Of a stretch of DNA of 64,000 bases, positions 17,227 through 48,204 are shown in pieces; the first letter of the stretch is position 1; each line of letters opens with the position of its first letter. Location: assembly GCA_028289585.1 (NCBI GenBank), contig JANQPI010000020.1, positions 1 to 64,000 of the forward strand, written 5' to 3'. This DNA comes from Candidatus Zixiibacteriota bacterium. Lineage in GTDB: Bacteria; Zixibacteria; MSB-5A5; GN15; FEB-12. Below the pieces are notes generated by a model, which saw nothing but the letters and a program-made list of their open reading frames with translations, made no database searches and was not told where the DNA came from. The position numbers and the translations under genes were made by a program.

Positions 17227-19647
17227 TTAGTCGCTGCCTTCGGTGTCAGCAAAGGCATCGAGCCGATCGAGAAGTCGGTCCTGAGATTCTGGTGATTCCA
17301 GTCGATAGAACCATCCGAGAGCCCGTTGGACCGAGACCATATCAAGCAGGAAATCGTAAACGGCATTGGCAGCAGCCTCATCGGCAATGCGAGCTGCATT
17401 TTGTGCATCAATAAGGTCGACGATCGTCGCCGCCCCGCGCGAATACGCATCGGCAACGAGCGCATACGAATCATCGGCCGCCTGAGCTGCCAGCTGCGAC
17501 TGCCGAATACCGGCATACGAAGCTCCTGCGAGGTGCATTGCAGATCGGACACGCTCAGCGACTCGTTCGCTCGTCGCCTGATGAGTCAATTCGAGACGTG
17601 TTGCTTCATGACGAAGCCGTGCGCGGGAGGCGAGACGTTCACCACCATTGAACAGCGGCAATGTCGCCTGAAGTCCGATTTGCCAATTGTTGTCGTCGGG
17701 AGTAGAGATCTCAGTGCCGGGGGGCAGAAGTCCTTCCAATCCACCGGAACCTCCGGCGCTGTTTGCACCCGACCGATCGATCACACGGCTGAATTCGACA
17801 TTGAGACCGACCTGCGGCAGCCAGAATGATCGTCCCACCGACGACCGCTGACGCTCCTGAACCTGAATCGCAGACGTCAGCGCAACGAGCTCGGGTGCAC
17901 GCTGTCGTGCTTCGTTGTCGAGAAATGCTCGGAGACGCCGAAAGCGATCCGGATTGTCGAGATACGGAAGGAAGCGCTCGTTGCCGATCAGGAGCTCCGG
18001 ATCTGAAAGGTCGAATTCAATCGGCAGGAACGACTGTTCGACGGGGCGGTTAAGAATTCGATTGAGAGCAATTTCGGCAACATTGCGTACGGCGTTCGCC
18101 TCAATCGCCTCGCGCCGATCCGTTGCCAATTCCGATTCCCAACGCAGAACTTCGGCCGCGCGAGCCGTTCCCAAAGCTTCCCGTACGCGGGCAAGATCAA
18201 GGTTAGCTCGCGTTCGCGCCACGTTACCGCGAGCGATTCGTTCCACCGTTCTCGCTCGCAGCAAACCCAGGTATGCGCTTGCTGCCTCAGCAATGAGATC
18301 CAGCTCAACAGTCCGTTCATCAGCTACGGCGATAGCCCGCTGCAATCGCGCAATATCGAGTGATGCGTAGATCGGTTCGGCGAAGATGACCTGGTTCAAA
18401 TTGACGGACCCAAGAGTCGTCTGCTCGGCCTGGGTCGATCCGAATGCCGTCGCACGATCCTCATCAATCCAGACAGACTGCGCCGATACCGACAGCTGTG
18501 GCCATAGTGAGCTTCGTACTTCGTCAACCGAGCGCGATCGGGCATCGCGATTGGCCCGCGCAACTTTCAAATCGAGATTGGTAGACAGCGCCTCTCGAAG
18601 AACATCGGTGTACGACACTACACGCGAGATTTCGGTCCGCTGTTGGTTGATCAGTTCGGCGTCGGTTAGGATAGCCCACGACGGAAACACGCCTAATGAT
18701 CGAGCGGTCTCCATATTGATCAGGAGTTCTTCATCAAACGCAATCGCCACCGGAATCTGGGCGGCATCGTCGCCAAGAAGGATCCGTTGAATGACAATAG
18801 CGGTACGTCGAGCAATTAGCTGCAAATACCCCTTCGCGGCATAGCCCGCAAGCACGCCGCGAGGAACATCAATATCGGCGAGAACGGAGAAACTTGGTAG
18901 CTGCTGAGCGATGAGCGAATCAATGAGGTTAGCGAAGTCATCATCTGATAACTGTAAGAGCGGCGCCAGGTAAACGGCGTCAACATCGTCGGGGATTTGA
19001 CTCAGCGCCTCCCGGTAGTTCGCCGCGACAGGCACAACGGACAGTTGGACCGATTGCTCGGCCAGTTCGGCACGCATCCGGGTTTCCAGTCCCGGAATTG
19101 CCTGAAGAAACGCCTCGTTGCCAATGAGACAGAGATGTGAGAACGGCACAATTTCAGCCAGCCGCTTGATTTCCTCAGGCAGGCGCCAGGGAGAGGCGAC
19201 ATACACCAGATTCGATCGTCCAGATCGGCCATCTGCATACGGCACACTCTGCATTACCGGGTCGATCACAAACGGTGCGACGATCGGTTTCGGAGGGGAT
19301 TCGATAAGCGCTGCGACCTGCGATGCAATCACACCCAAGGTGATCACCAAATCCACGTCGGGATCAGCAAGCTGCGATGCAACCGCACTTCGTATTGACG
19401 ATGAATCCCAGGAACCCGTGCGACGCTTGGACTCCGGGAAGCGGGCGTCGAACTCGGTTCCCAGCAGATCACGGATTTCTGTTTCGAATAGCGTGCGGAC
19501 AGAATCGTTGAGGAACCACTCACCGTCGATAACAAAACCGATCGTGATGTCGGAAGATCCGGCGTCTTGTGAATGAACAGCAGGGGCCAGTGTCAACACC
19601 AGCGTGATAAGGCTAACGAATAGTCGTTGGACCTGTCGTCCCGTCAT
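17227..19647 (-). CDS. Fusion of ABC substrate-binding-like domain (PF04392-like) with TolC outer-membrane efflux protein
   Basis: Start moved to the ATG at 19647 (MTGRQVQRLFVSLITLVLTLAPAVHSQ signal peptide). N-half LVITLGVIASQVAALIESPPKPIVAPFVIDP...GVLAGYAAKGYLQLIARRTAIVIQRILLGDDAAQIPVAIAFDEELLINMETARSLGVFP; C-half TolC coiled-coil repeats (AYLGLLRARTVERIARGNVARTRANLDLARVRE, ATLPLFNGGERLASRARLRHEATRLE). Confidence 0.85.
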   Translation of the reverse strand: MTGRQVQRLFVSLITLVLTLAPAVHSQDAGSSDITIGFVIDGEWFLNDSVRTLFETEIRDLLGTEFDARFPESKRRTGSWDSSSIRSAVASQLADPDVDLVITLGVIASQVAALIESPPKPIVAPFVIDPVMQSVPYADGRSGRSNLVYVASPWRLPEEIKRLAEIVPFSHLCLIGNEAFLQAIPGLETRMRAELAEQSVQLSVVPVAANYREALSQIPDDVDAVYLAPLLQLSDDDFANLIDSLIAQQLPSFSVLADIDVPRGVLAGYAAKGYLQLIARRTAIVIQRILLGDDAAQIPVAIAFDEELLINMETARSLGVFPSWAILTDAELINQQRTEISRVVSYTDVLREALSTNLDLKVARANRDARSRSVDEVRSSLWPQLSVSAQSVWIDEDRATAFGSTQAEQTTLGSVNLNQVIFAEPIYASLDIARLQRAIAVADERTVELDLIAEAASAYLGLLRARTVERIARGNVARTRANLDLARVREALGTARAAEVLRWESELATDRREAIEANAVRNVAEIALNRILNRPVEQSFLPIEFDLSDPELLIGNERFLPYLDNPDRFRRLRAFLDNEARQRAPELVALTSAIQVQERQRSSVGRSFWLPQVGLNVEFSRVIDRSGANSAGGSGGLEGLLPPGTEISTPDDNNWQIGLQATLPLFNGGERLASRARLRHEATRLELTHQATSERVAERVRSAMHLAGASYAGIRQSQLAAQAADDSYALVADAYSRGAATIVDLIDAQNAARIADEAAANAVYDFLLDMVSVQRALGWFYRLESPESQDRLLDRLDAFADTEGSD

Positions 19648-41097: not shown

Positions 41098-41449
41098 GGG
41101 GGTGACCAGGTTTCGACGGGTGTAGTGGGAGGTTGCTGGCGTGCCGGGGATGTCTGGAGCCCCGTTACCAATCCGGGCACACTAGTAATTGGCAACAATT
41201 ACGCCCTCGCGGCCTAACTAAGGTCCGCGCGCGAGCTGTTTTCGTAGTCTCTCCGGGACAGACCTCGCGCCATAAGAGAGACTCGGTCGGTGCGACGCCG
41301 TTAAGCGCCGCTTAAACAGTAACGGCTGGATCGTCGATAGGCCTGTTAGTCGGCTTGTCGACGGTCGAGATGAAGTAGACTAACTACGCACGTAGAGGGC
41401 AGCTCGCCGGTACATTCGGACGGGGGTTCGATTCCCCCCACCTCCACCA
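41098..41449 (+). ncRNA. ssrA: Transfer-messenger RNA (tmRNA), proteolysis tag ending ...GNNYALAA
   Basis: 5' gggggtgaccaggtttcgacggg; tag reading frame ggcaacaattacgccctcgcggcctaa (GNNYALAA*; resume codon not certain); 3' ggttcgattccccccacctccacca; gggggtg pairs with cacctcc. Confidence 0.96.
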
Positions 41450-41566
41450 AATCTCATACCACCAGTGATCCTGGTGGATACAAATCATAAAGGGTGTCGG
41501 ATGATTGTTCAGGGTGATATAGCTTCCGCTCGGGACTATTGGAAACGTGGTCAATAGGAGACCAAC

Positions 41567-41725
41567 ATGAACAAGGTGCTGCTGATTATCCTGGCCATCC
41601 TGCTGCCTCCGGTTGCGGTTCTGCTAAAAGATGGCGTTGGCAAGAGTCTCTTGATCTCTGTGCTGCTCACGATCTTCTTCTTTATACCCGGCGTCATCCA
41701 CGCCCTCTGGGTCGTCACGAAGTAG
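41567..41725 (+). CDS. YqaE/Pmp3 family small membrane protein (52 aa, below the ORF-track cutoff)
   Basis: MNKVLLIILAILLPPVAVLLKDGVGKSLLISVLLTIFFFIPGVIHALWVVTK*; aggag RBS 6 nt upstream. Confidence 0.88.
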   Translation: MNKVLLIILAILLPPVAVLLKDGVGKSLLISVLLTIFFFIPGVIHALWVVTK

Positions 41726-41830
41726 ACACACGCATACATCAGCTAGACGGGTCAACCGAACCGCTATGCAACGCATTCGGCCTCCATCAGTCCAGACCGA
41801 GTACAACTACTACATCCTGGCGTGATTACC

Positions 41831-41931
41831 GTTAGTCGGCTTGGCAGCGGTCGAGAACAAGTAGACTACGCACGTAGAGGATAACTCGTCGGTACATTCG
41901 GACGGGGGGGCGATTCCCCTCACCTCCACCA
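41831..41931 (+). pseudogene. Degenerate duplicate of the ssrA 3' end (copy 2)
   Basis: gttagtcggcttggcagcggtcgagaacaagtagactacgcacgtagagg...cggtacattcggacgggggggcgattcccctcacctccacca aligns with 41345-41449. Confidence 0.92.
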
Positions 41932-42150
41932 AATTTTGCTTCACTCGTCGCAAGCAGGAGATCCGACTGAACTGTCCTCTTGCCTTCAGATTACTTTCTG
42001 ATACGCCGTAGCTAACAGCGTGCTTTTCGCGGGCGCTACTGTTTCCTAATGTATCATGGTGACAACGATACTTCATTCCGTTGAACCGAACACGCACCTG
42101 GACGATCACAGACGTCGACGAGAACCCAGGATCATCTGAAGGCTGTCTAC

Positions 42151-43005
42151 ATGAATTTGTTATCACTTGTCGATCTGAACAGAGGCCAGCTGGAGAGCAT
42201 CTTTGATCTGGCAGACGAACTTTGCGAAAGAAAACAAACAGATCTGCTCAAAGATAAGTTGGTCGTGTTGATGTTTCCCAATTCAAGCGTACGAACGATC
42301 GTCAGTTTTAAAAGGGGCGTTCAACTTCTGGGTGGCGACACAATATCACTCACCACGGACGTCCTTGAGAGAAGAGAAGCACTTGTCGACCTGGCTGGCT
42401 ACCTCGACAACTGGGTGGATATGGTAATAGTCAGGTATGGAGCCTTTGAGACTGTTAGGGAGTTATCCACGTACGCTGGTTTTCCTGTGGTGAACGCAAT
42501 GACAGCAATGAATCATCCCTGTGAAATCATTGCTGATCTGTATTCGCTCAGGAAACTGCGCAGAGATTACACTGACCTGAAGTATGTTTTTGTAGGGCCC
42601 GAGAACAATGTATGCAACTCCTGGATAAACGCCGCCAGGCTGTTGCATCTGGATTTGACACAAGTTTGCCTTCCTGAATACAAAAGTCACCTGATCTCAG
42701 ACGAAGACGATTCTGTAAAATTTGCCACTGACTTAAAAGAATCAATTGCTCAGGCTGATATCATTCTCATTGACTCACTTCCCGACGAATTGAGATGCAA
42801 ACAGTACTATGACAAGTACCAGATCACTTCGGAACTGCTGGCCACGGCCAATGAGAACGCCTTGTTAAATCCCTGTCCACCATTCTATCGTGATGAAGAA
42901 ATCTCAGCAGAGCTGATTGACTCCAGGTACTTCGTTGGATATGAGTTCAAGCACAATCTGCTATCCGTTCAGCAAGCGATTATGGCATTTTGTTTTCGTA
43001 ACTAA
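42151..43005 (+). CDS. Divergent aspartate/ornithine carbamoyltransferase family protein
   Basis: FPNSSVRTIVSFKRGVQLLGG (STRT-like), MNHPCEIIADLYSLRK (HPCQ-like), DSLPDE, NPCPPFYRDEEIS replacing HCLP. Confidence 0.8.
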   Translation: MNLLSLVDLNRGQLESIFDLADELCERKQTDLLKDKLVVLMFPNSSVRTIVSFKRGVQLLGGDTISLTTDVLERREALVDLAGYLDNWVDMVIVRYGAFETVRELSTYAGFPVVNAMTAMNHPCEIIADLYSLRKLRRDYTDLKYVFVGPENNVCNSWINAARLLHLDLTQVCLPEYKSHLISDEDDSVKFATDLKESIAQADIILIDSLPDELRCKQYYDKYQITSELLATANENALLNPCPPFYRDEEISAELIDSRYFVGYEFKHNLLSVQQAIMAFCFRN

Positions 43006-43222
43006 GTGATTTATCGCCGTACCGGAGTGGCTTTGCAGGGACACTCGGTGCTAACAGCTTTGTACAGCGTGAAATCAATACGATTACGGCCATGCAGTAT
43101 AGTGGCTGCAACATCCCAGCAAACATGTCGGTCGATTCATGATATGAGATTTTCTCTCTGAGCTGGTTTGGCCGGTGGGTAGCCATTCGTAGACAGGAGA
43201 TGGACTGTCGCAGGAGTGTGAT

Positions 43223-44161
43223 ATGAATCGTATGGTTGCAACGACTTCAGTATTGTCTTTGGCATTCGCGTTCCTGGTTCTTGGTTCCGTATCGGCTCTA
43301 GGACAGAACGACGATGAGTATTGGTTCAAGAGAGTACTCGTAACGAACGACGATGGCATCAACGAGCCACGTATCTTGAAGCTGGGGATCGCATTCTCGG
43401 CTGTGGCGAAGACCTACATTGTTGCCTCAACCGAAGATCGAAGCGGATCTTCGAACTACACTATGTTGGGCAAGAGAACCCGATCGCTGTTTGTGACCAG
43501 AGAGTATGATTCTGATAGCTTGACAGCATACGCAGTCTCCGGATATCCAGCCGACTGTGTTGCTTTTGGTATCAAGGGCCTACTGAAAGAGACACCGCCA
43601 GACCTTGTAATCTCTGGAATAAACGGCGGTCCCAATCTCGGGACAGACGGCTGGTTTGTCTCCGGTACAATCGGCGCAGCCAGAACAGCAGCATTCTTCG
43701 GTATACCGGCAATCGCGGTTTCGGGACTGGACAGTGACGACAAGAACATGGTTGACGCTTTGACGGCGTGGGTCATAGAACTTGCCAAGACTCGAGTCGT
43801 TCAAGACTTGAAGCCGGGTGAGTACTTGAACGTCAATGTACCGCGGGTGAAGCCATCTGAGATTCGAGGAGTCAAGGTTGCGCGCCTCGCACCTTCGAAC
43901 CACGAGATCAGCTTCGAGCGTGTGTTTCGTGAGTTGGATGATGATGGCATCGAGAGCGAAGAAGTGTGGCTGATCGAGAGGACGCCTACAACCACTATGG
44001 ATCCAGCCGGCACCGATATCTCCGCATTTCATCAGAACTTTATCACAATTGTTCCGATGCGGATTGGTGAAAGCAAAGAGCAACCGGAAGAGCGTATTGG
44101 CCTGAACGACAACACGATTCCTGAGTGGAGACCGACTCGAAATCCCGACACTGAGCAATAG
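43223..44161 (+). CDS. Exported SurE-family 5'/3'-nucleotidase
   Basis: Signal peptide then VLVTNDDGINEPRI...STEDRSGSSNYTM...VSGYPADCVAFGIKGLL...PDLVISGINGGPNLGTDGWFVSGTIGAARTAAFFGIPAIAVS. Confidence 0.9.
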   Translation: MNRMVATTSVLSLAFAFLVLGSVSALGQNDDEYWFKRVLVTNDDGINEPRILKLGIAFSAVAKTYIVASTEDRSGSSNYTMLGKRTRSLFVTREYDSDSLTAYAVSGYPADCVAFGIKGLLKETPPDLVISGINGGPNLGTDGWFVSGTIGAARTAAFFGIPAIAVSGLDSDDKNMVDALTAWVIELAKTRVVQDLKPGEYLNVNVPRVKPSEIRGVKVARLAPSNHEISFERVFRELDDDGIESEEVWLIERTPTTTMDPAGTDISAFHQNFITIVPMRIGESKEQPEERIGLNDNTIPEWRPTRNPDTEQ

Positions 44162-44240
44162 ACCGATGCTGGGTCGGCGTTAAGCGAACGCTGTTTAGCC
44201 TCAACACAGCGAGGGTCCCTTTTAGCGCAACGCGAGTGTA

Positions 44241-44267
44241 GCGTTCGATTGACCCCACCTTCACCAA
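44241..44267 (+). pseudogene. Degenerate ssrA 3'-terminal fragment (copy 3)
   Basis: gttcgattgaccccaccttcaccaa against ssrA gttcgattccccccacctccaccaa (22/25 identical). Confidence 0.65.
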
Positions 44268-44699
44268 CCATAAAAATTGATTGGCAATCATTATACACAA
44301 TGGATTGTTACTGACGTTAACAGACATTTTCATGCATCGTACTGCCTGTCAAAGGTTTACAAAATTCTTGCAATCGACTCTTCCGTCCTTCATCAAGAGA
44401 CACGTTTTCATATCAGCACCATGACCCAACAACAAACGGTAAAATCTGCAGGGTTACACACTCGCTGATTCGGTTAGTGACTTTGAGATTCAAACGATCA
44501 GGAGATCTTCCTACTCCCGCATGCGTGACTTCTCACTCACAGTCAAAGCGAAGTCAACGTCTTTGCTGGATAGTCGATCGCGCAATGAAAAACGGATTGG
44601 TTCATTTACGCAGAGGTTTGTATACTGCTCGTGTTAAAAGGACTGAACGATAGAACGCTGACCTAACATCGCCATCATTATCATGCGGGGGAAGAATCA

Positions 44700-46037
44700 A
44701 TGACTCTTGAGATGGCCCTTTTACTCGTGGTCTTGGCACTAAGTGCTGGCATCTCATCAACGAAGTACCTACTCCAAAAAAATCCTAAACAAAAAAAGAC
44801 ATATCGGACTCTAACAGGTCTGATTCTACTGGCACTACTGGCAGCAGTGCTGCAGTCAGTAATCTTCAGCAGACTTCTCACAATCATTGAACTGCTTAAA
44901 TACGTAAGCGATGGACTCCACAACTATCTGGGGATTTCAATCTGGATCAACAGGGCGGTGATTGTTGCAACGCTGATTCCTCTACTCATTGCAGCAAAAC
45001 ATACTTTCTCCTCGAACCGAACCAAGCGCACCGTTGGATACGGACTTATCGTAGGGTATATCTGCATCTATTTTACGCTCATGCATTTTGCGACAAAGGA
45101 TCTACTGTTTACGCATGACAGCGGAGAAGCTCAGAAATGGGTATCGATAACCGCAGATGGTGAGGTCAGAGTGTACAACTCCCCCGGTTATGATGTATTC
45201 TCAGGAACCATTCTTAAAAAAATGACACCTGAATTGGCTCAACAAATAAGGTTCTTACAACAAAATGACATGACTGATTTTGATATCAGCAACGCCTACT
45301 TTCATCCTATCACGGGTGACACACTTAAGTGGTACTCCATTGATGATGGTGGCTCAATACTAATACATGATCATGCAGGATTCGACACCCAAACCGGCCA
45401 GCAGCTTAAATCGGTTACGCTTGATATTCTTGGACAACTCAAACAGCAGGAGAAGGCAAAACAAGTTCGTTTCGAAGTCGTACGTGACTCCCTTGCCAGA
45501 ACACTGGCTGAGTCTGAAAAAGAGCAACAACTTCGACAATTGAGAAAAAGATACATAGTAGCAGGTAATTCTTGTGCAGAAACGGTATCGCGAATCGCAC
45601 TATCGGTCGTAAACGAAGGCACCAATGCTCAGTGGATTGGTGTAGACCGCTTTACACAGGGAATTCTCATACAGAACCTGAAAAACGATGATTGTGATAT
45701 CATTACCGATCTCTTTAAGAGACCATTCTTTGATGATGGAAAAATGGCGCAGCTAATCAGAGGCAATGGTGAAGTGCTATCGCAATTGAATTTAGAAAAA
45801 ATTGCGGATGTTTTCGTAGCAATAGAAATTGAGAAAGCAATATCTGAGCCATCGCAACTTCAAGGGACAAAAACATGTCAGATAAAAATGAATGTCCATA
45901 CCTTTGACCACAACGGAAGACAGATTTCTCACACAGTTTTGACCTGCTCTGGTCTCGGTTTTACTGAACTGAGTGCACATGAAAAAGCAGTGGAAAAGGC
46001 CGCATCACAGCTTAGGGACGTGCTGATCAAACACTGA
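44700..46037 (+). CDS. Hypothetical membrane protein with internal two-fold repeat
   Basis: N-term TM helices; low-GC codon usage; repeat KWVSITADGEVRVYNSPGYDVFSGTILKKMT / KWYSIDDGGSILIHDHAGFDTQTGQQLKSVT. Confidence 0.75.
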   Translation: MTLEMALLLVVLALSAGISSTKYLLQKNPKQKKTYRTLTGLILLALLAAVLQSVIFSRLLTIIELLKYVSDGLHNYLGISIWINRAVIVATLIPLLIAAKHTFSSNRTKRTVGYGLIVGYICIYFTLMHFATKDLLFTHDSGEAQKWVSITADGEVRVYNSPGYDVFSGTILKKMTPELAQQIRFLQQNDMTDFDISNAYFHPITGDTLKWYSIDDGGSILIHDHAGFDTQTGQQLKSVTLDILGQLKQQEKAKQVRFEVVRDSLARTLAESEKEQQLRQLRKRYIVAGNSCAETVSRIALSVVNEGTNAQWIGVDRFTQGILIQNLKNDDCDIITDLFKRPFFDDGKMAQLIRGNGEVLSQLNLEKIADVFVAIEIEKAISEPSQLQGTKTCQIKMNVHTFDHNGRQISHTVLTCSGLGFTELSAHEKAVEKAASQLRDVLIKH

Positions 46038-46115
46038 CTTGAGTTCATGATGAATGTCTTGGAAAGGTGAACGATCTTTGCGTCAGAGTCAAGATCGAGA
46101 CAAGAGGGAAAACAA

Positions 46116-47237
46116 ATGAAACACCGCATTGGCTCAGCGTTAAACGTACTACTGATACTACTCTTATTGCAAACATCTGCCAATTCTGAACCTCTTAGCA
46201 AAACTTCTAGTGATACAACGGTTGTGTCAACTGGTCAAATTCTTCAACAAACGGTTACAACTCTGGCAAGCGAAATACGCTCAAGCATTTCTGACAGAAA
46301 GTTTACACGCCTGGCAGTAATGCCCTTTACATCGTTACGTGGTGAAGAGAATGACCTCGGCCTCTATATCTCCGATAGGCTCACAAGTGAACTCAGCGTT
46401 AGTGGAGATAATCTACAGCTGGTTGAGCGATCTCAGATTAATCAGGCGTTATCGGAAATGCGATTAGGTGAAACGGGGCTTCTTAGTGAAGAGACAATAC
46501 AGAAGACGGGGCAGGCTCTGGGAGCTGACGCTGTAATCATCGGTACGATTGTAGAGCTTGGCACTGAAGTTGATATCAATTTGAGAATGTTTTCTGTTTC
46601 TACGTTGAAAATCTTGGGAATGGCAAGTCAGCTGATCGAAAAAGACGAAGTTATCGAATCACTTCTTCAATTATCGATACCCCCAAGTGGCAACGTCATA
46701 GATTCTGAATCAACAAGTAACAACACAAACGCTGACAGCATCTTTTTCTACGAAGACTTCACGGGAATTGAAGAAGGATTAATCCCAGATCAATGGATCG
46801 GTGGAAGTACATTGGCAGTGAAGTCAAGTGACTTGAATAGAAGAACAAATGTGTTGGCAAATTTCAAGAAAGGTAATCACAATGTTACGGTTCCCGACAT
46901 TCCGTTTCCGGACAATTGGCGATTTGACATAGAGTTCTTCTATACTACCGACAGATATTTCTTCAATCCTTTCGTGCTAAAAATAGGTGACGTAAAAGCG
47001 AGTTTCTATAGGCACCAATCTTTTTTAAATGATATCAATGCTCATAAACCTGCGCCGAAAGGCAATCAGATCAATCTGGTGTCAGTAGTGAAATCGGGAT
47101 CTGTCATAAAGCTCTTTGTCAATACAGAGAGGATAAAGATGATTAGAATGGAGAGCTTTGAATCACCTACAGGTTTGAGCATATCCTACACGGGAGATTT
47201 CAGTGTCTTTCGTCTCAAAGGAACAAAGTTGCCATAG
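46116..47237 (+). CDS. FlgO/CsgG-like domain protein with C-terminal LamG/jelly-roll-like domain
   Basis: FTRLAVMPFTSLRGEENDLGLYISDRLTSELSVSGDNLQLVERSQINQALSEMRLGETGLLSEETIQKTGQALGADAVIIGTIVELG; C-term YEDFTGIEEGLIPDQW... Confidence 0.78.
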   Translation: MKHRIGSALNVLLILLLLQTSANSEPLSKTSSDTTVVSTGQILQQTVTTLASEIRSSISDRKFTRLAVMPFTSLRGEENDLGLYISDRLTSELSVSGDNLQLVERSQINQALSEMRLGETGLLSEETIQKTGQALGADAVIIGTIVELGTEVDINLRMFSVSTLKILGMASQLIEKDEVIESLLQLSIPPSGNVIDSESTSNNTNADSIFFYEDFTGIEEGLIPDQWIGGSTLAVKSSDLNRRTNVLANFKKGNHNVTVPDIPFPDNWRFDIEFFYTTDRYFFNPFVLKIGDVKASFYRHQSFLNDINAHKPAPKGNQINLVSVVKSGSVIKLFVNTERIKMIRMESFESPTGLSISYTGDFSVFRLKGTKLP

Positions 47238-47364
47238 AGCAGAATTCTACACTGTTGAATAGTGTTCTTTCTTATCTTGATCAGATTACAGAGATGTGTG
47301 CAGTGATTGATGCTTATACAGTTACCATGGTTACTTGCTTCGCAGTCAGCGCGAGGACAATGAT

Positions 47365-48204
47365 ATGTTTGAAGAACTCCGCAAACTGGATGTGCGACCA
47401 GCACCTTTCTCTGTCTATACCGCACAACAGTTATGGGATGACGATCACATCTCTCGCCAGATGCTGGCGATGCACCTGGATCCCGACGTTGAACCAGCGT
47501 CGCGACGGTCAGCCTTCATCGATACCTCTGTCGAATGGATAGTTCGACACTTTGATGTCGGTCCGGGAACGCGAATCGCGGATTTCGGTTGTGGTCCCGG
47601 CCTGTACACGACGCCATTTGCCCAGCGAGGTGCCGAAGTTACTGGCATCGATTGGTCGCGACGGTCGATTGCCCATGCTCGCAAGACAGCTGAGCGGAGC
47701 AGATTGAAGATTGACTACACCCTCACCAATTACCTGACGTATGAGAGCGACAAGCGCTTCGATCTGGCTACGTTAATCTACTGTGACTACTGCGCCCTGA
47801 GCCCGACCCAGCGCCAGCACTTCCTGCACGTCATCCGGCAGCACCTTGCTCCCGGAGGGCGACTATTGTTTGACGTGTTCTCACAGACTGCGTTTGCCTC
47901 CCATCAGGAGACAGCAACATTCGGACTCAACTTCATGAACCACTTCTGGTCCAAGTATGAATACATCGGCTTCCAGCGCACGTGGCGCTACGAGGCCGAA
48001 TCCGTTGCCCTCGATTTGTACGCAATCGTCACCGAGGAACAGGTTCGGCTTATCTACAACTGGCTGCAGTATTTTTCTCTCGAGAGCATTAGAAGCGAGT
48101 TAATGGAAAACGGCTTTACAGTCGTCGAACAGTTCGCCGACGTTACCGGACAAGACTATACTTCCGAAGCCACGGAGATTGCGATCGTGGCCGAGGCCAA
48201 CTAG
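47365..48204 (+). CDS. SAM-dependent methyltransferase
   Basis: GTRIADFGCGPGLYTTPFAQRGAEVTGIDWSRRSIAHAR; start placed at MFEELRK. Confidence 0.9.
   Translation: MFEELRKLDVRPAPFSVYTAQQLWDDDHISRQMLAMHLDPDVEPASRRSAFIDTSVEWIVRHFDVGPGTRIADFGCGPGLYTTPFAQRGAEVTGIDWSRRSIAHARKTAERSRLKIDYTLTNYLTYESDKRFDLATLIYCDYCALSPTQRQHFLHVIRQHLAPGGRLLFDVFSQTAFASHQETATFGLNFMNHFWSKYEYIGFQRTWRYEAESVALDLYAIVTEEQVRLIYNWLQYFSLESIRSELMENGFTVVEQFADVTGQDYTSEATEIAIVAEAN

Follow-up and report, generated by a model that had tools for sequence, protein, structure and literature searches.

The locus examined here raises the question of why the 3' end of ssrA, the tmRNA gene, is repeated downstream of the intact gene, and how the protein genes between the repeats came to lie there. 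The DNA analysed, hereafter the window, is a stretch of 64,000 nucleotides on contig C21 of a Candidatus Zixiibacteriota genome. ARAGORN and Rfam agree on a single intact tmRNA gene in the window, ending at 41449 as in the first-pass annotation, encoding its own CCA and the tag GNNYALAA. A search with the 21-nt ssrA 3' end (CGATTCCCCCCACCTCCACCA) found it at 41429, at 41911 (one mismatch) and at 44246 (three mismatches), all on the plus strand, with 0 matches expected from sequence shuffles, so that the in-line direct copies claimed at the outset do exist. The features of the locus are as follows.

41098-41449, plus strand: ssrA (tmRNA), probable insertion target and present proximal end of the array (ARAGORN; Rfam RF00023, 185.4 bits).
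41450-41830, plus strand: unit 1, 381 bp, from ssrA to copy 2 (alignment coordinates).
41567-41725, plus strand: cargo of unit 1, a 52-aa Pmp3/YqaE-type membrane protein (Pfam PF01679, 2.5e-20).
41831-41931, plus strand: copy 2, a long degenerate ssrA copy (class C end; alignment, E=6.7e-27).
41932-44193, plus strand: unit 2, from copy 2 to the class-A end (GC 46-51%, against 55-60% left of ssrA).
42151-43005, plus strand: cargo of unit 2, a divergent aspartate/ornithine-carbamoyltransferase-family protein (Pfam PF02729 and PF00185).
43223-44161, plus strand: cargo of unit 2, a SurE-family protein with an N-terminal signal-like extension (Pfam PF01975, 1.5e-46).
44194-44245, plus strand: degenerate class-A arm (P-arm of an attR), clearest at 44213-44239 (arm-only matrix; model R1).
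44246-44266, plus strand: copy 3, a displaced ssrA 3' tail with 3 mismatches in 21 (21-nt tail search).
44267-47500, no strand: continued low GC (42-46%); two genes, 44700-46037 and 46116-47237 (composition only).

Copy 2, annotated as a degenerate copy of about 100 nt, proved to be 101 nt long and aligned to ssrA positions 248-352 (the last 105 nt) with 85% identity counting gaps and 88% over the 101 aligned bases; its T-loop is damaged, and it has a 4-nt deletion. Copy 3 had been placed at 44241-44267, borders that are close to those of the tail itself, 44246-44266. The Pmp3, carbamoyltransferase and SurE genes lie between the copies as claimed, according to open reading frames and Pfam. The locus thus has an intact target gene at one end and a displaced 3' fragment of the same orientation at the other, the arrangement of an island integrated at a tDNA or tmRNA gene.

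Displaced ssrA 3' ends of relatives are preceded by a conserved arm with the consensus ACGGTCACAATTTGGTCACAATAGGGTGTAAGTCCTTGTGCCACAACGCGAGTAT, then GGGGTTCGATTCCCCCCACCTCCA, and class A is described by the pattern GGTCACAAT-N2-GGTCACAAT...TAAGTCCTTGTGCCACAACGCGAGT. A 27-nt arm matrix was prepared from 43 distinct sequences of relatives, leaving out the window sequence and the ssrA tail. Scanning of both strands of the 64 kb gave 44213-44239 as the top position, in exact register with the tail of copy 3. Model R1, with 78 positions covering arm plus tail and also built without the window, had its top match in the whole 3.15-Mb genome at 44196-44261 (E=1.1e-5 within the window). Chance is ruled out both for the copies and for the arm of copy 3. 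Because the arm matches in register, copy 3 can be read as a recognisable attR and not as a mere decayed 21-nt tail; judged by these matches, it is a true element end.

A search for the class-A arm at copy 2 found none. Long copies akin to copy 2 occur about 0.3-0.4 kb behind ssrA, after another tiny gene, in G012 and G034, and that of G034 tracks the ssrA of its own host (97% over 88 nt). This type of end therefore recurs, although it is less well explained than the class-A end. Copies 2 and 3 are different end types, long copy and class A, and need not share one system; copy 2, having no class-A arm, could stem from another integrase or from simple duplication.

The cargo has the distribution of foreign genes. 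The Pmp3 gene is the sole occurrence among the 55 genomes of the window's family, the carbamoyltransferase is 35% identical to the genome's other copy, and the SurE protein is 30% identical to the other SurE of the genome. Homologues of the carbamoyltransferase and SurE more than about 38% identical were absent from the 55 family genomes (mostly about 30-35%), and no relative of the window SurE was found in viral contigs. All three cargo genes thus look foreign on sequence comparison. GC content is 54-60% left of ssrA and drops to 42-51% on the right side as far as about 47.5 kb, and the foreign region may extend beyond copy 3, past the interval of the original finding; on composition, 44267-47500 may be an older insertion that has lost a recognisable end. 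Encoded in that stretch are a CsgG/FlgO-like protein and a protein of 445 aa with a single occurrence in the genome. Contig C21 contains neither a tyrosine nor a serine recombinase, and hence there is none within the window units, in agreement with the initial description of units lacking an integrase. The integrases elsewhere in the source genome adjoin tRNA-Met and tRNA-Ser.

BLAST detected arm-plus-tail ends about 100 times (a count of listed rows) in 32 of the 55 family genomes, the displaced ends behind the arms being ssrA or tRNA 3' ends. Across the phylum, the arm was found in 51 of 133 genomes and 37 of 85 genera. In two genomes from different families, the arm runs for 69 nt without a difference, as against 74% identity of the ssrA bodies; horizontal movement is the best explanation for this, and constraint on a binding site may contribute. 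Exact matches in GTDB were mostly from Candidatus Zixiibacteriota, Zixibacteria or GN15, the outliers being one KSB1 MAG, one Bacteroidetes MAG and two contigs of one other bacterium, for which binning errors are possible. The class-A pattern had no exact match in IMG/VR, leaving a phage origin of class-A ends unsupported. A second conserved end, class B, has AAACCAAATAAAAACTGGAG upstream and was seen at L046:8840-8952 and at L053:10920-11027 and 19370-19476, as well as in G066, G033, G028, G065 and G034; since it precedes the same ssrA tail as class A, at least two end families use ssrA.

Behind the ssrA genes of relatives, class-A ends form many arrays that are fresher than the one in the window. 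In G009, four displaced ends, every one with a full arm, follow ssrA within 12 kb; two to five class-A ends lie behind ssrA in G007, G016, G039, G019 and G078, and one in others. The maximum is five in-line ends behind one ssrA, always in the orientation of ssrA. Median spacing is 2.7 kb (62 class-A intervals), and the units are mostly 1-5 kb long with mostly one to three genes; these loci were picked for having hits, so that the figures describe arrays and not genomes and are no unbiased census. A recognisable tyrosine recombinase was present in one of 73 intervals, other end types being counted too, namely a 35-kb interval in G078 that includes an earlier tail of another type. Among 117 cargo proteins scanned were 13 serine beta-lactamase-fold enzymes, 5 APH phosphotransferases, TPR proteins, kinases and methyltransferases. 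Some cargo recurs: a DUF4185 protein in the arrays of G009, G012 and G034, and a DUF6880 protein in G008, G013 and L067, with a class B end closing it in G013. Some class-A ends lie just about 0.2-0.3 kb from ssrA, and the intervals, which have no open reading frame of 90 aa, resemble empty units (L057:13090-13274, minus strand; L067:2988-3261). In G016 (L045:1221-3889, minus strand), the present ssrA ends in CACCTCCA with no CCA, and a CCA with a terminator-like hairpin lies 2.66 kb downstream, at the displaced end.

Comparison of related ssrA loci, as proposed in the first-pass annotation, revealed that congeners keep the left flank and differ on the right. In genus g4 (G003, G031, G076), genes left of ssrA are syntenic with 73-94% identity, and the right side has no common orthologue; genus g30 (G029, G066) shows synteny on the left at 65-70% and has nothing in common on the right. 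In genus g13 (G012, G034), identity is about 93% in the left flank and 90% in a gene beyond the array, and the 5 versus 10 kb between them hold partly different genes. Identical content across relatives, named in advance as the pattern that would count against an active array, was looked for and not found, in line with the single Pmp3 and the low identity of the carbamoyltransferase and SurE homologues. Of 32 genomes, 9 have a MAG contig that stops within the 250 nt after ssrA, compared with 0.58 expected from contig numbers, one of the nine stops falling inside ssrA; such breaks fit a junction that is repeated or strain-variable. All array evidence comes from assemblies, in which no excised form or empty site was seen, and MAG assemblies can misjoin repeats. 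The window's genus was represented among the genomes searched by one species, the window's own; direct synteny of the window with other genera was rejected, no flank being shared.

The architecture of the ends is informative about the type of recombination. The motif [CG]TTAC[AG] occurs within 60 nt after 15 of 56 displaced tails, compared with 22 of 642 control windows. Together with the paired GGTCACAAT repeats and a TAAG..TTGTG element, which lie on the opposite side, it resembles a tyrosine-integrase attP, with arms placed around a T-loop core. The arm is also used at tRNA genes: in G009, it precedes a tRNA-Leu tail behind tRNA-Leu, and in G112 it marks one end of a decayed tRNA-Gln element, with a broken tyrosine integrase at the opposite end. 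A tyrosine integrase lies directly upstream of tRNA-Leu in six genomes (L143:6760-7784, L140, L141 and L180-L182), with GGTCACAA/GGACAC-type repeats following the gene 3' ends or lying in them. All this links the arm to tyrosine integration without naming the enzyme of the ssrA units. As a helper for the ssrA units the tRNA-Leu-side integrase was rejected: its att repeats resemble class A, yet it occurs in only 5 of the 55 family genomes and is absent from the arm-rich ones. Two further candidates were discarded. The arm could not be traced to short C-terminal integrase fragments, which are followed by a different sequence, and tRNA-Lys failed as a class-A target in G007 because it does not match the displaced tails there. 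No recombinase co-occurring with the arms was identified.

We consider it likely that the arrays arose when small elements with no integrase of their own, mobilised in trans by a tyrosine integrase, inserted in succession at the ssrA T-loop. Such elements would enter the T-loop region one after another, giving a tandem array. Each would bring an attP whose 3' half rebuilds a working ssrA end beside the incoming cargo; the former ssrA 3' end would be pushed outward, to be preceded from then on by the conserved arm of the element. The recombinase acting on the units in trans would likely be a tyrosine integrase of the type found beside tRNA genes elsewhere in these genomes. Against this mechanism stands the fact that no integrase acting on class-A ends was identified, the tRNA-Leu-side enzyme being missing from the very genomes richest in arms.

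Applied to the window, unit 2 (carbamoyltransferase and SurE, class-A end) is probably the earlier arrival, newer insertions being expected closer to ssrA, and unit 1 (Pmp3, long ssrA-like end) would have followed. Copies 2 and 3 look like displaced att ends and are most simply read as the traces of two successive insertions at ssrA, so that this part of the initial proposal is supported. Both ends would have decayed after insertion, making present mobility unlikely, and the window array is probably old and inert. The idea of an active array here was consequently not borne out, nor was that of a cassette system with its own recombinase, and "cassette array" describes the appearance of the window only. 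For the phylum, a wider arrangement is conceivable, and we hold it tentatively at best: a cassette system on ssrA and some tRNA genes, with one- to three-gene units, attP-like arm ends, a shared tyrosine integrase in trans and ssrA as the leading end, functionally parallel to integrons.

An unlikely alternative is that integrase-bearing islands or prophages at ssrA lost the integrase and most of their genes by deletion while their ends remained with a few genes, as CIMEs, no unit ever having moved without its own integrase. This is an accepted general route to tandem islands (PMC5704250), and it would account for the decayed ends of the window; islands with an integrase directly behind ssrA exist (G078, G067, G031, G028), and the tRNA-Gln element of G112 combines a decaying integrase with a class-A end. 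The rule among relatives, however, is near-perfect ends (arm identity up to 100%) around intact single genes with no integrase remnant, which would be odd for an integrase disappearing through slow decay. The integrase-bearing part in G078 is moreover closed by a tail with other repeats (TTGTGCCA) and not by a class-A arm, and its ssrA integrase was rejected as the class-A enzyme on that ground.

We give a rather low probability to a dedicated integron-like system, in which a resident recombinase would act on class-A ends as cassette sites and ssrA would be the fixed leading end. Consistent with it are the single conserved site of each unit, the gene number of mostly one to three, the lack of an integrase in the units and the recurrence of cargo families in which beta-lactamase-fold, phosphotransferase and methyltransferase genes are frequent. 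The site, by contrast, has the look of a double-stranded attP, arm repeats and T-loop core included, and not of an attC, target use is confined to ssrA and a few tRNA ends, and no recombinase co-occurring with the arms was identified. Finally, an old tandem duplication of the 3' part of ssrA, with divergence and unrelated genes falling between the copies, is highly improbable: the 101 nt of ssrA in copy 2 exceed a typical att core and similar long copies exist in G012 and G034, but copy 3 has a recombination arm absent from ssrA, which contradicts duplication for that copy, the cargo is foreign, and long copies of other genera follow their own host's ssrA and hence are not one inherited duplication.

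The arrays were also compared with described systems. Tandem ssrA islands are already known in Dehalococcoides, with repeated 3' ends and a motif upstream of each repeat; some have no integration genes, and a serine recombinase is used, its module DsiB/DsiA being carried on 16 islands (PMC3146451). The Zixibacteria arrays vary this known theme. Their ends have arm repeats of the tyrosine-integrase type and not a serine recombinase module, serine recombinases (PF00239) being present in 12 genomes with all matches outside the arrays. Their units are mostly 1-5 kb and almost never contain a recombinase, whereas the ends are almost identical across genera, and the arm is reused at other tRNA genes; these traits set them apart. 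CIMEs are decay products of ICEs or IMEs beside a functional element, for which tandem accretion is accepted (PMC5704250). Like them, the units have accumulated one behind another at a tRNA-type gene's 3' end, keep attL and attR and have no integration or transfer genes, transfer genes being judged from Pfam matches of the window cargo; unlike them, the integrase-less units follow one another in long rows whose ends are nearly identical, with no adjoining resident functional element.

CALINs consist of small gene units in arrays, each unit having one recombination site, with no integrase nearby and possible mobilisation in trans (PMC11389934). The Zixibacteria units share all of this with CALINs and integron cassettes, and they differ in that the site is a tRNA or tmRNA 3' end with direct-repeat arms, by inspection unlike attC, and in having no linked IntI-type integrase. 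Tycheposons likewise sit at tRNA genes as small elements with cargo and leave partial repeats of the tRNA behind, but they are reported to carry tyrosine recombinases, which the Zixibacteria units do not, and class-A ends are unmatched in viral contigs. They are a named family of phage satellites (PMC11389934). A literature search of partial coverage found no paper on such arrays in Zixibacteria.

One short sequence thus defines an apparently undescribed class of recombination ends, present in over a third of the sampled Zixibacteria genomes, and the class-A arm provides a simple handle for mapping variable gene arrays in this group. If the units do move in trans, single genes would be shuffled behind an essential RNA gene with no classic integron. 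Insertion would replace the ssrA 3' end itself, at times removing the encoded CCA and terminator, and this replacement offers a testable link between mobile elements and ribosome rescue.

Two further observations concern the tails and their positions. A recurrent insertion of about 25 nt, GGGGTT[TACTTCGCTGCGCTCAGCATCTGCGA]CGATTCCCC, occupies the same T-loop place of displaced tails in several genomes (L104:1116-5066, the ends in L107 and L108, and the long copies in L042 and L043). In the one-contig genome G066, locus L107 (G066:C1:1686001-1706000) contains six class-A ends, several with ssrA-type tails, about 0.83 Mb from ssrA.
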